A DNA stretch of 64,000 nucleotides from Bacteroidota bacterium (GTDB lineage: Bacteria; Bacteroidota; Rhodothermia; JANXDC01). The stretch is from NCBI GenBank assembly GCA_025998875.1, contig AP024675.1:2205549-2269548 (forward strand), read 5' to 3'. The position numbers and the translations under genes were made by a program. The notes below the pieces were generated by a model. That model saw nothing but the letters and a program-made list of their open reading frames with translations, ran no database searches and was not told where the DNA came from. Each line of letters opens with the position of its first letter. Within the stretch, counting starts at the first letter, position 1. Below, in pieces: positions 33,760 to 43,814 of the stretch.

Positions 33760-33985
33760 GGGCGCCCTCCAGCCATGAAGCGATGGCCTGGATGGAATCC
33801 AGCTGGGGCCAGAGTTCGGGGGGGATAGGGCAACCGAAGGCCTCTTCGACGGCAAAGAGCAACTCGATATGCCGGAGCGAATTCCAGGCCTCCGTATTCT
33901 CCCGGCTCGCCTCCGGGGAAACCGGTTCCCCCAGCACGGCCACAGCCAGCTCCAGCAGCCGATCCAGCACGCTACGGCTCTCCAT
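33749..33985 (-). CDS. acyl carrier protein
   Basis: The 78-residue protein has the ACP helix pattern LDRLLELAVAVLG, then ENTEAWNSLRHIELLFAVEEAFGCPIP, then LDSIQAIASWL. The Ser of the WNSLRHIELL motif is the likely phosphopantetheine site; the usual Asp before it is Asn. It lies between the DegT-FkbH fusion and the GNAT gene and overlaps both, so it probably carries the glyceryl-type or other acyl unit made by the FkbH domain. A housekeeping fatty acid ACP would be expected beside fab genes instead. Confidence 0.88.
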   Translation of the reverse strand: MESRSVLDRLLELAVAVLGEPVSPEASRENTEAWNSLRHIELLFAVEEAFGCPIPPELWPQLDSIQAIASWLEGAHVP

Positions 33986-36869
33986 GGATCGCTTCCTCCA
34001 CCTGAAGTCCTTCCGGTACCTGCCAACCCAGGACGCGATGGGACGGAAGGGCGTAGAGACCCTCCTGCGGGATCTCCTCCAGTTCGAGAACCGACTTGAG
34101 CCAGCGCCGAACGGGCTCGTTGCGCGGCCCCGGGCGCACGGGAAAGAGAATCCGCGTTGTTTGCTCGAGAAACGGCACGGCCCGCAGGGCCAGAAACACC
34201 ATGGCCTCCTCGAGCCCTCTGCCCAGGGCGCGGCAGGAGATGGCCAGCTCGCGCACCAGCGCACCATCCCCTTGCTGCTCCACGAGCAGGGCCGCCACCA
34301 GCCCGCTGTCCGCAAGCCGATCCCGGAGCCGCACCCCCACGACCGCCCCCCGGGGATCGCAAGCCAGGGCATCGACAACGGCCAGCGAGCTTCGGGCCAG
34401 GGTCAGGTTGAACTGGTTGGTCTTCTGCAGAAGCTCAGCGATGCGGGGGAAATCCTCGGGCTCGTTTACGGACACGGACAAGCGGGTCTGCAAGGCGCCC
34501 CAGTACGCAGCCAGATCATCGAGCTGTCGGCGCAGCGCCTCCCGGACGGCCAGGCTCTGCCAGTCCCGTACCCGAAGGGCGTTCTCCGAAGTAGCCGGGT
34601 GCCACCGCCACAGGCCCGGATAGTACCTCAGGGTGCGCCGCGTACGCTCCGGATCGGCGGCATGCACCCGATGCACCTCGGGCAGATCACGGGCCACCTG
34701 AATGAGTTCGCCCGGGTTGTCGTCCACAAACAGGATGCTATCGAGACCGATGCGCAACCGCTGGGCGAGCTCGTGAAGCAAGACGGACTTCGGACGCCAG
34801 TCCGCAAGCACGGCCGCTAGATCCGCCCCGCGGAGCGGGAAACCTTCCCCCTGCAGGAGCCCGAGGACGTCTTCGGGGTGATTGCGGGTAACGAGCGCCA
34901 CGAAGAGCCCGGACCGGGCGCATCGCTCCAGGAACGCCTGAAGCTCCCGGTGTGCGGGGCTGATGCGGATCCCCTCCACCCCGTCCTCGGCCAGCACGCC
35001 GTCATAGAGCGTGCCGTCGAGATCCACGGCGATGGCCTTGATCGGGGGCAGGACCAGGCCACCGATCCAGCGGCCGGCCAGCGCGCGCGCCAGCAGCAGC
35101 TGGGCCTCGTTGCGCAGGCGGGTGCCGGCCACGGGAAGCAGATCCGGGTCCCGCCACACCAGATCCGGGGCTTCTTCGGCGAAGAAAGCGCCCAGATCCA
35201 CCCAGTGCACATCAACCAGACCAGAAAAAGGATCCCCACTTTGCGGATGGGCCAGCCAGCTCAGCACAAGCATGGGGAGCTGGCTGGCCCGGCGGCGCAG
35301 GGCGATGCGCTCCCGCAACCAGTCCAGGAACTCCGCATCGGCAATCCGATACCGATCCCGATCCAGATACACAAGTTCCAGGCTTGCGCCCTCGGGGGCC
35401 GGATCGGCCCAGGAGAGGCTGTCATCGTAGGCGCTCAGGTGGACGTCCAGGGCAAATCCGGCAAACCGCAGATACGCTTCCAGGGGCCGCAACAGGGGCT
35501 CGAAGGCGTGATTGCGCCAGACCTGCATCTGTATGCGGCCCCGCAGAGGCCACTTTTCCACGGGCAGGCGGAGGAGCGCAGCGCGTCGGGGCCGCGCGGC
35601 AAACAGGGTCTCGATGGCCAGATCGCGCTCCAGCTCCGCCGATTCGGACGCCGGATCCGGAACCCGGCCGGATGCGCCCCCCGGTGCGGGAGCGGCAGGC
35701 TCCTCCGAAGACTGTGGCCGGAGCCCCGGCACCGGATGCACGGCCCCGCCTCTTGAGGCCAGCTGCGCTACCGCTTCCCGCACAGAGGCGATCACGTACT
35801 GGAGCTCTTCCTCCTCCAGAAACGGATCCAGGGGCAGGCTCAGGACCTCGCGCGCCATCTGCTCGGCTCCGGGCAGGGCGCCCGGACCCAGCCCCAGGTG
35901 CGCATAGACGGGTTGCAGATGGGGCGGGGTGGGATAGTGCACCAGCGATTCGACGCCCCGTTCGGCCAGGAGCCGCTGCAGTTCATCCCGTCTGCGATGT
36001 CGCACGACGAAGAGATGCCAGACGGGCTCGGCCCACTCGGGAACGGGGAGCAGGGCAAGCTCCGCTTCCAGATCGGCAAACGCCTCCCGGTACCGGCCGG
36101 CCAGCTCCCTGCGCCGCTCGTTCCACGCCTCCAGATGGCGCAGTTTGGTGCGCAGCACGGCCGCCTGGAGGGGGTCGAGCCGGCTGTTGATGCCCTCGAT
36201 CTGGTGCACGTTGCGTTGCGGAGAGCCATAGTGCCGGAGCAGGCGCAGGCGTCGGGCCAGTTCGGGATCCGAGGTCGTCACCGCCCCTCCATCCCCGATC
36301 GCGCCCAGGTTTTTGCTCGGGTAGAAGCTCCAGGCCACCGCGTCCCCGTGGGCGCCGATGCGACGTCCCCGGTATCGAGCCCCGTGCGCCTGGGCGGCAT
36401 CTTCGAGCACGCGCAGCCCGTATCGGAGGGCCAGGTCCCGGATCGGCTCCAGATCGGCCGGGAGGCCATACAGATGGACCGGGATGATGACCCGTGTGCG
36501 GGCCGTGATGGCCGCCTCCAGATCGGCCACATCCATCATGCCCGTGCGGGGATCGACGTCCACGGGCACGGGCCGGGCCCCGCACCAGCTTACGGCAAGC
36601 CAGGTGGCCACATACGTGTGCGCGGGCACGATCACCTCCGCGCCCGGCCCCACCCCCATGGCGCGCAGGGCCAGGTAGAGCGCCTCCAGGCCGTTTCCTA
36701 CCCCGATGCAGTACTCCGCCCCGCAGTAGGCGGCCCACTCGGCTTCGAAGCGCTCCAGCTCCGGGCCCAGGATGAACTGGCCGGCATCGAGCACCCGCCT
36801 GATGGCCTCCTCCAGCTCCGCCTGCAGGGCGCGAGTCTGGCGTCGAAGGTCAAGAAACGGCACCTGCAT
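33972..36869 (-). CDS. DegT/DnrJ/EryC1 aminotransferase fused to FkbH-type HAD domain
   Basis: This 965-residue fusion has residues 1-373 as a PLP aminotransferase of the sugar type, with VPFLDLRRQTRAL, GVGNGLEALYLALRAMGVGPG, VHLYG, EDAAQAHGA and the PLP Lys in FYPSKNLGAIGDGGAV near residue 186. A Pro-rich linker (~374-420) follows. Residues ~420-965 are FkbH-like (HAD-IIIC): AVDLDGTLYDGVLAEDG near 613, LVTRNHPEDVLGLL, SILFVDDNPGELIQVA, and the C-terminal ELLQKTNQFNLT. The aminotransferase half resembles FdtB, which aminates dTDP-3-keto-6-deoxyhexose. FkbH enzymes load a glyceryl unit from 1,3-bisphosphoglycerate onto ACP. Its start overlaps the ketoisomerase gene by 20 bases. This pairing in one chain is unfamiliar to me. 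Confidence 0.9.
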   Translation of the reverse strand: MQVPFLDLRRQTRALQAELEEAIRRVLDAGQFILGPELERFEAEWAAYCGAEYCIGVGNGLEALYLALRAMGVGPGAEVIVPAHTYVATWLAVSWCGARPVPVDVDPRTGMMDVADLEAAITARTRVIIPVHLYGLPADLEPIRDLALRYGLRVLEDAAQAHGARYRGRRIGAHGDAVAWSFYPSKNLGAIGDGGAVTTSDPELARRLRLLRHYGSPQRNVHQIEGINSRLDPLQAAVLRTKLRHLEAWNERRRELAGRYREAFADLEAELALLPVPEWAEPVWHLFVVRHRRRDELQRLLAERGVESLVHYPTPPHLQPVYAHLGLGPGALPGAEQMAREVLSLPLDPFLEEEELQYVIASVREAVAQLASRGGAVHPVPGLRPQSSEEPAAPAPGGASGRVPDPASESAELERDLAIETLFAARPRRAALLRLPVEKWPLRGRIQMQVWRNHAFEPLLRPLEAYLRFAGFALDVHLSAYDDSLSWADPAPEGASLELVYLDRDRYRIADAEFLDWLRERIALRRRASQLPMLVLSWLAHPQSGDPFSGLVDVHWVDLGAFFAEEAPDLVWRDPDLLPVAGTRLRNEAQLLLARALAGRWIGGLVLPPIKAIAVDLDGTLYDGVLAEDGVEGIRISPAHRELQAFLERCARSGLFVALVTRNHPEDVLGLLQGEGFPLRGADLAAVLADWRPKSVLLHELAQRLRIGLDSILFVDDNPGELIQVARDLPEVHRVHAADPERTRRTLRYYPGLWRWHPATSENALRVRDWQSLAVREALRRQLDDLAAYWGALQTRLSVSVNEPEDFPRIAELLQKTNQFNLTLARSSLAVVDALACDPRGAVVGVRLRDRLADSGLVAALLVEQQGDGALVRELAISCRALGRGLEEAMVFLALRAVPFLEQTTRILFPVRPGPRNEPVRRWLKSVLELEEIPQEGLYALPSHRVLGWQVPEGLQVEEAIHGEP

Positions 36870-37317
36870 CTTCGCCCTCCCGGACCAGGCGCAGAAATTC
36901 CGCGTAATCCCGGATGTAGTCGGACTCCTCATAGGGCTCGGAGGCGAGCACCAGACAGACGGCGCCCGTGGAGAAGTTGTCCAGGTAGCGCCATACCATG
37001 GGGCAGATGTAGAGGCCGTAGTAGGAGCGGTTGAGGTGGAAACGTCGGCGCCGGAATCCATCATCGAGCACGACATCGAAGCTCCCGCTCATGGCGATGA
37101 GAAACTGCTGTAGCCGGCGGTGCGCGTGCGCCCCTCGCTCCGCCCCCCCGGGCACGTCATAGAGGTAGTAGACGCGCTCGATGGCAAAGGGAATGTGCCG
37201 ACAGGATTCAATAAAGGTGAGGTTGCCCCGGGGATCGGTGATCCGGGGCAACTGGATGATCCGGCAGTGCCGGAGCGCACCCGTCCTGCGCCCATATGCC
37301 GTAAGGAGCCCGCCCAT
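36850..37317 (-). CDS. sugar 3,4-ketoisomerase (FdtA/WxcM-like cupin)
   Basis: The 155-residue protein has the cupin-type WxcM/FdtA signature. CRIIQLPRITDPRGNLTFIES near the start, RVYYLYDVPGGAERGAHAHRRLQQFLIAMSGSFDVVLDDG with the paired His, and YICPMVWRYLDNFSTGAVCLVLASEPYEESDYIRDYAEF near the end match QdtA/FdtA proteins. They convert dTDP-4-keto-6-deoxyglucose to the 3-keto sugar before transamination. It is the first gene of the operon and matches the aminotransferase that follows. Start ATG 37317 follows GGAGGG at good spacing. Confidence 0.9.
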   Translation of the reverse strand: MGGLLTAYGRRTGALRHCRIIQLPRITDPRGNLTFIESCRHIPFAIERVYYLYDVPGGAERGAHAHRRLQQFLIAMSGSFDVVLDDGFRRRRFHLNRSYYGLYICPMVWRYLDNFSTGAVCLVLASEPYEESDYIRDYAEFLRLVREGEDAGAVS

Positions 37318-41341: not shown

Positions 41342-41364
41342 GCGCCGATCGCCGGATGAAACAA

Positions 41365-41393
41365 AAAAGGCAGGGCGCAAAGCCCTGCCTTTT
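41365..41393 (+). terminator. intrinsic terminator after metH
   Basis: AAAAGGCAGGGC (41365-41376), loop GCAAA, GCCCTGCCTTTT (41382-41393). The stem has GC-rich core pairs, with A tract before and T tract after, so it can also end transcripts from the other strand. Confidence 0.9.
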
Positions 41394-41484
41394 CTGCTGT
41401 CCCGACGGCGCCTGCCGTACTAGATCTGCTCTAGCTATCTCGCCCTCCGATGTACATAGCTCCGTTGCAATCCGGTGCGGGACG

Positions 41485-41551: not shown

Positions 41552-42001
41552 TCAGGCGTCTGCTGTGCTTTCCGCTCGCCCCACAGGTCCGATCAGGCGC
41601 ATGCGGCGCAGGAGCCACCTGTAGATTCGTTCGGGATCGCCCGCCTCGATGCTGCGCAGCATCCGGTAGATGGCCTCTGAAGAGGCGCGCACCTGAAACC
41701 CGTTGGTGTTGAGCAGATGCAGGAGCGCCATCCAGGCCAGGGCCACGTTGCCCTGCCGAAAGGGCCGGTAGTGAACGAGTTCAAAGAGCAGGCGCGCTCC
41801 GCAGCGGGCCAGGTGCTCTTTTTTTGATCCCCGCCGGAGCTCTTCGGCTTCCCGATACAGGAGCACAAGCGCGAGCTCCAGCGCGGCCAGCTCCCGAAGC
41901 GCCGGATCCCAGTGCATGCGCCTGCAGAGCTCTTCATGCAGCCAGCAGACCTCCCCCACGGTGGGGAGGCGCAGCCCAGGAAGGGACCTCGCTATGGCCA
42001 T
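41552..42001 (-). CDS. Doc/Fic-like protein with a degenerate motif
   Basis: The 149-residue protein fits the death-on-curing size. The core region FELVHYRPFRQGNVALAWMALLHLLNTNGF aligns by eye with the Doc motif HPFxxGNKRTA...LELNG. At that alignment the catalytic His is Arg, Asp/Glu is Gln and Lys-Arg is Val-Ala, so AMPylation or phosphorylation of EF-Tu by this protein is doubtful. It overlaps the ribbon-helix-helix gene by 10 bases, as toxin-antitoxin pairs do. It may be a dead toxin, a repurposed Fic fold, or a false fit. Confidence 0.6.
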   Translation of the reverse strand: MAIARSLPGLRLPTVGEVCWLHEELCRRMHWDPALRELAALELALVLLYREAEELRRGSKKEHLARCGARLLFELVHYRPFRQGNVALAWMALLHLLNTNGFQVRASSEAIYRMLRSIEAGDPERIYRWLLRRMRLIGPVGRAESTADA

Positions 42002-42201
42002 GGCCCGATCCGCTCCAGCAGATTCTGATAGCGCCTCCAGTTTTCTTCCACGCGATCCCGATTGCGCGCCTCAAGCCTCTCCTGCTGGGCCAGAAAGTGC
42101 TCCAGGGCGACCCGGATCACGTACTCCAGCGGCACCCCGTGGCGCCGGGCCAGGGCGCACAGGCGATCATAAAGATCCCGGGGCAACCTTATCTCCCCCA
42201 T
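41992..42201 (-). CDS. small ribbon-helix-helix-like protein, possible antitoxin
   Basis: The 69-residue protein starts EIRLPRDLYDRLCALARRHGVPLEYVIRVALEHFLAQQE, the strand-helix-helix layout of MetJ/Arc-type regulators, followed by a charged helical tail suited to binding a partner. It overlaps the Doc-like gene by 10 bases and the Wzi-like stop by 13. The classic Doc partner is Phd, not RHH, but other RHH partners are known. Autoregulation is expected but there is no separate promoter here. Confidence 0.65.
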   Translation of the reverse strand: MGEIRLPRDLYDRLCALARRHGVPLEYVIRVALEHFLAQQERLEARNRDRVEENWRRYQNLLERIGPWP

Positions 42202-43814
42202 TCCAGACCCAGACGCCAGATCCGCTGATCCGGAATCCGAGCGCCCTCCAGGACCCGGCGCAGTTCGAAGCGGACCCAGAAGACAAAGGCACGCCAGGGC
42301 TCCCAGCGCAGCATGAGGGCACCCCGGACCCAGCGGTGCCGATCGCTTCCGGTAAGAAAGCGTTTGTTGCCGGTCATGGGACCCACGCTCCCTCCCAACC
42401 GCGCATCCCCCCCCACGTTGCGCACCAGATTGCCCGAAGCATCCAGCACGTTTAGCCCCTTGCGCACGGCCTCAAGCTCGGCCTCGATCCAGCTTCTGGC
42501 TCCCACCCACCGGCGCAGACGCAACAGCCAGGAATCCGCGTTGGGCCCGAGCGGATGGCCGATCGTCCATTCCCGTTCGATATAGGCGTTATAAGGCCGC
42601 GGATGGGAATAGACAAAAGGGTCGATGTACGTGTAGGAAAGCCCCGCCTCCCAGCCCCGAGGCCCGTACCAGTGTATCCCGGCCTGCAGGCCGTGCTTGT
42701 TATCGAGCGTATCGGTAAAGAGCCCGGAAAAGGTGAGATTATCGATCAGCCAGCTGCCGTGCAGGATCCATCCCGGACGGATGCGCACCCGGGCTTCCAG
42801 AGTCCAGAGGATGTTGTCCAGGAAACCGAACTCATCTTCAGAGATGAGGAACGGATAGATCGGGATCCAGTAGGTGAGCTCCATCCCCCGGTTGCCGTAG
42901 ACGACCATTTCCGTAAAGGCAACCGTCCATCCTGCGCGGGGCTCGAACTGAACCCGGTGCAGGGCAAGCCACCGGGGTCTTCTCCAGGTGCCTGTCTGCT
43001 GAGGCCGGTCGGGCAGCGGGGTCTCGAAGACCGAATCCTGAAGGGCGGCGTGCAGGAACTGAAAATTCGTCCGCCGGTAGCGCAGGGAAAACCGCAGGTA
43101 CGGTACATAGGGTGGGTTTTCCGACCAGATCAGCGAGGAGGCCGGCTCAATGCCGTAGAGGATGCGGCCTCGGCCCATGTCCAGCATCAGAGGCCCGGAG
43201 AGGTAGCTCATGAAGGCCTGCACATCGTAGGAGCCCTCTTCCCGGATGCGCACGTTCTGTGTGCGGGACCAGATCGGATCGAATCGGCCCAGATCCGGGG
43301 GCCGGTATCCGATCGCGCGCGCGTCCAGAAAAAACCCCACCCGTCCGAGGACGCTTCCGTAGAGGCGTCCGCCCAGACGGGATACGGGACCGAAGAAGCC
43401 CTCGGTTTCACGGACGGACATGAGCTCCCCTCCCACCGAGGGGTCCACAAACAGACGGGTTTCCGGATCCCGGTAGGCGTACAGATGCCCTTGCTGGCCC
43501 CTGCTGCGCGGAAGGAGAAAGGCCTCCTGATCGGGTCGATCTTCGAGCTCCCGGACCCAGGACCACCAGCGGGTGCGGTCCTCGGCATCGAGTCGGGTGG
43601 TGTCTACCCGAAGGAGTCGGTCCAGGAGCACGGCGCGCGAGGCCGGGATGCCGTCCCATCCCCGTTCCAGAAGAAGGCCGCGCCCATAGGCGCGCTCCAG
43701 CCAGGAGTATACGGGATGGGGATAGGGCCACATTTCCGGCCGGGGCACCTGGCCGGAAACGGGCACGGCAAACGCCGAGGTGATCAACAGGAGCATCCAG
43801 AGCCGATCAGACAT
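42189..43814 (-). CDS. Wzi-like outer-membrane protein
   Basis: The 541-residue protein has a signal peptide (MLLLITSAFAVPVSG) and many aromatic-rich amphipathic strands, e.g. GWILHGSWLIDNLTFSGLF, GWEAGLSYTYIDPFVYSHPRPYNAY and ALMLRWEPWRAFVFWVRFELRR, ending in strands as a barrel would. N-terminal YPHPVYSWLERAYGRGLL resembles the leader of Bacteroidota capsule assembly Wzi-type proteins. Such proteins help attach or organise surface glycan. It is the last surface gene before the RHH/Doc pair. Confidence 0.65.
   Translation of the reverse strand: MSDRLWMLLLITSAFAVPVSGQVPRPEMWPYPHPVYSWLERAYGRGLLLERGWDGIPASRAVLLDRLLRVDTTRLDAEDRTRWWSWVRELEDRPDQEAFLLPRSRGQQGHLYAYRDPETRLFVDPSVGGELMSVRETEGFFGPVSRLGGRLYGSVLGRVGFFLDARAIGYRPPDLGRFDPIWSRTQNVRIREEGSYDVQAFMSYLSGPLMLDMGRGRILYGIEPASSLIWSENPPYVPYLRFSLRYRRTNFQFLHAALQDSVFETPLPDRPQQTGTWRRPRWLALHRVQFEPRAGWTVAFTEMVVYGNRGMELTYWIPIYPFLISEDEFGFLDNILWTLEARVRIRPGWILHGSWLIDNLTFSGLFTDTLDNKHGLQAGIHWYGPRGWEAGLSYTYIDPFVYSHPRPYNAYIEREWTIGHPLGPNADSWLLRLRRWVGARSWIEAELEAVRKGLNVLDASGNLVRNVGGDARLGGSVGPMTGNKRFLTGSDRHRWVRGALMLRWEPWRAFVFWVRFELRRVLEGARIPDQRIWRLGLEWGR

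Follow-up and report, generated by a model that had tools for sequence, protein, structure and literature searches.

A Doc-like protein without catalytic residues and its ribbon-helix-helix partner behind a capsule gene in a Bacteroidota bacterium

The last gene of a glycan operon in a Bacteroidota bacterium encodes a protein of 149 amino acids that is predicted to fold like the toxin Doc and keeps none of the four catalytic residues of that family. The gene (41552..42001, minus strand) lies in the window, i.e. the whole stretch of 64,000 nucleotides of contig AP024675.1 that was analysed, and follows an overlapping gene for a ribbon-helix-helix (RHH) protein and the capsule assembly gene wzi. 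Judged by its sequence, we classify the protein as a Doc-like pseudoenzyme within the Fido fold; since the motif of Doc toxins was searched for and is absent, it is not assigned to these toxins. Our preferred, still tentative explanation is that a former chromosomal RHH-Doc toxin-antitoxin pair has been retained as a non-toxic complex, whose role would most likely be regulatory.

The altered motif, RPFRQGNVAL, occupies residues 79-88 (41738..41767, minus strand) and replaces the HPFxDGNKR of canonical Docs: PF and GN are retained, while the catalytic His, the Asp and the Lys-Arg are absent. In alignments made via canonical Docs, His66, Asp70, Lys73 and Arg74 of P1 Doc correspond to Arg79, Gln83, Val86 and Ala87; the loss of all four positions, read in the initial annotation from the motif itself, is thereby borne out. 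Neither RPFRQGNVA nor RPFRQGNAA, the version found in the orthologue from a second genome, conforms to the Doc toxin motif HxFx[D/N][A/G]NKR of TIGR01550, a family of toxins that arrest growth by phosphorylating EF-Tu. A His elsewhere in the protein, which might have served as the base, does not seem to take over either: in the two orthologues no substitute conserved His is seen beside the loop; the second species has Glu at the position of His77, and His22, which is conserved, falls on a near-invariant column of the 41-sequence Doc alignment.

Family support from the single sequence is weak but consistent. The Pfam family Fic (E=0.0022) and TIGR01550 DOC_P1 (E=1.1e-4, 22.3 bits vs. a cut-off of 38.65) both remain under their cut-offs, and PHROG 577 'Doc-like toxin' matches across residues 15-130 with E=3.1e-5. 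A phmmer search of the PDB with the single sequence matched no Doc; a search with the 41-row profile, which includes canonical Docs, did. The AlphaFold2 model (mean pLDDT 91.3, pTM 0.84) was built on the same 41 aligned sequences, whose canonical Docs may draw it towards the Doc fold. Its top match in VIA-align is P1 Doc H66Y bound to Phd (Z 17.4, rmsd 1.8, 120 residues), followed by the remaining two Phd-Doc entries (Z 16.9 and 16.8) and, at 10.7 and below, by the next Fic structures; Foldseek returns the same Phd-Doc entries with a probability of 1.00 (best E 1.5e-3, none <0.001). The core fold of the Fido superfamily (Fic/Doc/AvrB), of the Doc type, is thus confidently modelled, and a model lacking this fold, named beforehand as the outcome that would speak against the assignment, did not arise. 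As separate observations, a PADLOC search for anti-phage defence gave a single weak match of the Doc-like protein (PDC-S04, E=0.002), and the sole above-cut-off Pfam Fic match of the genome lies at another locus (L039, G000:C1:430460-430759, minus strand) and has the intact motif HPFRNGNGR.

On the minus strand, the ORFs give a transcription order of wzi, RHH and doc-like. The RHH gene (41992..42201, minus strand; 69 aa) shares 10 bases with the Doc-like gene and 13 bases with the gene of the Wzi-type capsule assembly protein (42189..43814, minus strand; 541 aa). Of the overlaps claimed at the outset, those of the RHH gene with the Doc-like and the surface-protein gene are thus found; that between the Doc-like and the surface-protein gene is not, since only the RHH gene overlaps the gene of Wzi. 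The Wzi-like protein, which also has an orthologue in the second genome, matches Caps_assemb_Wzi (PF14052) with E=3.1e-9 and exceeds the Pfam cut-off. Upstream on the same strand are genes for a bacterial sugar transferase, a WecG-type transferase, an ORF without Pfam family and two family-2 glycosyltransferases, with further long ORFs beyond them, and the Doc-like gene is followed by a convergent methionine synthase gene; the placement of the pair at the end of a glycan operon therefore stands. Between the ends of the two convergent genes lies a hairpin (41359..41401), a probable terminator: the minus strand of 41355-41405 folds with -29.4 kcal/mol (z -5.6; 0/200 shuffles equally stable), and the pattern scan for terminators does not list it. 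Around the pair, searches revealed no promoter-like sites (0 vs. 0.4 in shuffles) and no operator-like inverted repeat common to both species, the repeats found being short and unshared. Elsewhere in the window (33972-37076, minus strand), an ORF of 1034 aa contains a DegT-type aminotransferase at residues 85-433; its second half is without Pfam match and shows by eye a HAD-like DLDGTLYDG stretch, so that two sugar-pathway activities are perhaps fused here.

Conservation could be assessed in one other genome of the same order (G001), and all evidence of this kind derives from this single species pair. This genome carries the same trio of wzi, RHH and doc in the same order, and RHH and doc again overlap by 10 bases; between wzi and RHH lie 16 bases, compared with the 13-base overlap in the window. 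The Doc-like proteins of the two species share 55% identity, the RHH proteins 45% and the Wzi proteins 66%. The contig stops 12 bases ahead of wzi, which limits the comparison to wzi onward. A match of the glycan operon was sought by a DNA search of G001 with 4.8 kb of the operon; none was obtained, and the search is uninformative. At the protein level, the WecG-type gene of the operon has in G001 only a 39% relative on another contig; hence, the pair appears not to be tied to one glycan pathway. Both genomes also possess a second site (G000:C1:1697913-1710780 and G001:C11:126916-136955) at which Wzi (37% and 33%) and WecG (39%) have relatives; neither genome yielded a second Doc-like gene.

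The position in a glycan operon is one of the points for an explanation by which the protein would be a repurposed Fido-fold enzyme acting on a nucleotide sugar in the manner of AvrB, to which we assign a very slight probability. AvrB is described as a Fido fold without Fic motif that is able to take up glycosyl transfer, a rhamnosyltransferase whose Arg266 contacts the UDP beta-phosphate (PMC10866546); the absence of the Fic motif is also stated in PMC2686095. AvrB entries also occur among the structural matches of the model, namely 2nud (Z 8.9), 8twj (8.8) and 1nh1 (8.7). However, P1 Doc is by far the better match (Z 17.4), and AvrB, itself a larger effector, lies within the general run of Fic entries; furthermore, the peptide-binding hairpin of Fic domains is reported to be absent in Doc (PMC2686095), and the WecG-like gene of the operon is represented in G001 only by the 39% relative mentioned above.

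How unusual the altered motif is can be read from a census of Doc relatives. Similarity searches covering 394 genomes from the phylum and 244 from the class gathered 67 relatives with letters at the motif, including the Doc-like protein and its orthologue. The His is kept in 63 of them, the acid in 62, Lys or Gly in 62 and the Arg in 61, and 59 keep all four. None of the four residues remains in the Doc-like protein, its orthologue and a relative whose gene is broken (L059); only the two orthologues lack all four in an unbroken gene. The same changed motif was not found in plasmids (tblastn, E up to 1e-5) or phages (tblastn, E up to 0.1), and none was confirmed by pattern scans of genome_contigs and viral_contigs, which detect close relatives only and are thus slender evidence against further copies. 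In the tree of Doc-like proteins, the stem of the two orthologues measures 4.0 changes per column and joins L011, another long row, with a long-branch warning; no line of descent is read from this tree. The same tree shows clustering of the label 'RHH partner' (3 changes vs. a shuffled mean of 11.1).

Several other relatives depart from the canonical pattern in their own ways. In L017 of G384, an open gene, three of the four residues are lost and the motif reads AGYRDCNLH; the match (L017/L033, L017 1501-1833) is a His-less Doc-like open frame with the acid kept and Lys-Arg lost, and the gene ahead of it encodes, by eye, an AbrB-type partner. L059 (G492) is an RHH-Doc module whose doc is broken into two parts in different reading frames. 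L011 (G087, match 1501-1851) keeps the His and has Thr-Cys in place of Lys-Arg (HPFVDGNTC), preceded by a small gene of unassigned kind. In L029 (G280), an ORF of 122 aa that is unlike the RHH and AbrB partners lies ahead of the Doc match.

Because the orthologue has the same altered loop in the same trio of a second genome, we take the altered locus to be more than a product of chance. The dN/dS values are about 0.24 for the Doc-like gene, 0.38 for RHH and 0.18 for wzi, and these values are rough as synonymous sites are nearly saturated. The loop YRPFRQGN is unchanged in its amino acids, with four of eight codons differing, and so is a helix block at residues 36-53 (RELAALELALVLLYREAE; 41843..41896, minus strand), in which 12 of 18 codons differ. 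This block is the longest identical run, and a run of 18 residues is attained in 0.05% of shuffles; the loop is the second-longest, and 6% of shuffles attain its eight residues. The conservation of the loop is by itself not remarkable; the helix block is the outstanding run. Compared with canonical Docs, the block has three residues inserted and is missing a Pro that is near-invariant among them. According to this single species pair, then, the lineage appears to have altered two parts of the protein and subsequently retained both.

These data bear on the alternatives of a dead toxin and a repurposed fold that the initial annotation had left side by side: as far as two species can indicate, the conserved loop favours a protein kept for something over one that is merely dead. 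Simple decay of the Doc-like gene is unlikely, because the loop has kept its amino acids through synonymous changes, with a dN/dS of about 0.24 for the gene. A milder version, in which a toxin-antitoxin pair is in slow decay and its genes persist through linkage to wzi or weak constraint, would agree with the loss of all four catalytic residues, with the faster evolution of the Doc-like and RHH genes relative to wzi, and with the existence of broken or degenerate relatives (L059, L017). Both frames are, however, open in both species at nearly saturated synonymous sites, and the amino acids of altered loop and helix are unchanged, with an 18-residue run that shuffling so rarely produces. Hence, we consider slow decay distinctly unlikely.

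The small overlapping gene was taken from the start as an RHH gene, and the Pfam profile RHH_1 supports this with a score above its cut-off (E=2.2e-6, 27.8 bits vs. 20.5). The model of the protein (mean pLDDT 89.4) places helices at residues 8-21 and 25-65. In both species, two small overlapping genes with the DNA-binding-type partner first form the layout of a type II toxin-antitoxin pair. An RHH gene also directly precedes doc in 11 of the Doc relatives (L003, L005, L007, L008, L012, L045, L053, L056, L058, L059 with its broken doc, and L072); the partners of most others are, by eye, of the AbrB type. A table passage of PMC2701414 gives AbrB, xre and yhfG as neighbours of Fic/Doc genes, with RHH not among them. 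All 11 RHH partners end in the C-terminal tail KNx[ED]L[YL][RQ]RL[AS]. The RHH protein of the window and its orthologue lack the KNx[ED]L tail and both end in RRYxxLLxRIGxWP, an end that, in the alignment, retains a Tyr and a Leu of the usual one; their scores for a Doc-binding tail are matched by 47% and 81% of shuffles, and several true RHH partners also score low. Strand residues of RHH proteins face DNA. The first strand of the two orthologues is two residues shorter than in 11/11 RHH partners and contains a conserved Glu3 that probably faces DNA, so that binding to DNA may be impaired. The likeness to a toxin-antitoxin pair is therefore upheld for the gene layout and weaker than first proposed for the proteins, because the RHH protein also departs from the partners of intact Docs.

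An altered RHH strand is also the reason why a protein-protein module without DNA binding follows closely behind the regulatory reading, unlikely as we hold it to be. The pseudo-Doc would then be a decoy or scaffold that the RHH protein dimerises, binding for example the target of Doc or the antitoxins of incoming Doc modules. The shortened strand with its conserved Glu3 and the strong conservation of the rebuilt helix and loop would fit such a role, for which BepC offers a parallel: this degenerate Fic protein is described as binding GEF-H1, with no enzymatic activity found (PMC8401265). On the other side, the RHH_1 score is still above the Pfam cut-off, the tie to wzi is left unexplained, and there is no known binding partner.

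It is improbable that the protein is still a toxin, acting by altered chemistry or by binding only and neutralised by the RHH protein. The gene order with an overlapping partner has been kept, a degenerate Fic2 of Campylobacter fetus is reported to be toxic (PMC5651007), and a conserved Doc clade with Gln for His has been argued not to be dead (PMC4454073). But the Fic2 protein, according to the same account, retains the catalytic His and is non-toxic as the H184A variant (PMC5651007), and the Doc clade, D2, retains the acid and Lys-Arg (PMC4454073), whereas here none of four positions remains; moreover, a Doc-binding tail is not recognisable in the RHH protein.

What argues for the preferred reading, a non-toxic regulatory complex, is the dual nature of Doc, which is described as a kinase and also as a corepressor bridging Phd dimers on the operator (PMC4803016); its H66Y variant lacks toxicity, and crystals of this variant were obtained with Phd bound (PMC2686095). 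By analogy, a Doc lacking the His and the phosphate-binding residues should retain nothing but the binding role, which is why a non-toxic regulatory complex is favoured. We propose that the toxin of a former RHH-Doc pair lost its enzyme residues and that selection may retain a non-toxic protein complex. The RHH dimer and the pseudo-Doc would bind each other, the latter serving as a corepressor and linking RHH dimers in the manner of Doc in transcriptional control, and the pair would tune its own transcript and the joined capsule gene wzi. In favour of this count the predicted Doc fold, the loss of four positions, and the altered sequence and the wzi-RHH-doc trio in both species, and in favour of an RHH-Doc pairing the 11 relatives with an RHH gene just ahead of doc. 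Against it count the shortened RHH strand with Glu3, a tail that scores no better than shuffles, the lack of a promoter-like site or a shared operator-like repeat, and the dependence on one species pair; the pair is furthermore the last part of the operon, so that the promoter would sit far upstream. A more specific version is possible, if rather doubtful: the Doc toxin would have become a non-enzymatic subunit of a regulator or switch of the capsule operon, a lineage-specific RHH/pseudo-Doc device tied to wzi, in which selection would have preserved a remodelled active loop and nearby helix along with a remodelled RHH partner.

The closest known system is Phd-Doc of phage P1 (3dd7, 3k33, 3kh2), which shares the fold over 120 residues (Z 17.4) and the position of a small gene right behind an overlapping DNA-binding-type partner. 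It differs from the locus studied here, where the Doc-like protein lacks the four catalytic residues, the partner is RHH and not Phd, and the pair is chromosomal and joined to wzi. RHH-Doc modules on chromosomes from the same class and phylum (e.g. L003, L012, L045) likewise have RHH preceding doc, and their Docs align with the present protein at 20-28% identity, but the motif is kept in ten of their eleven Docs (the eleventh, L059, being broken) and all their RHH proteins have the usual tail and a longer first strand. Doc clade D2 consists, as described in PMC4454073, of conserved single-domain Doc-like proteins without the catalytic His; it retains the acid and NKR and has Gln for His, in contrast to the present protein, which does not match the D2 motif Qx[F|Y]x[D|E][G|V]NKR, having Arg for His, Gln for the acid and no Lys-Arg. 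The non-canonical BepFIC domains of Bartonella are reported to retain PFxxGN and to miss the His in about a quarter of sequences (PMC8401265), but they belong to host-targeted, multi-domain Fic effectors, unlike a Doc-like protein paired with RHH. Doc and Fic proteins without the His have thus been published before, and the protein is a variant among them; searches of open-access literature turned up neither a Doc in which Arg replaces the His nor a Doc-like gene linked to wzi, which argues only weakly that none has been described.

The toxins of toxin-antitoxin pairs also serve as corepressors of transcription, and the locus bears on how often such a pair outlives its toxicity. It presents a Doc-like protein without any catalytic residue, with a loop conserved in the sole relative compared, beside a surface-glycan gene. 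If the proposed complex and its DNA binding are true, the two small genes would represent a natural separation of the regulatory role of Doc from its toxic role.
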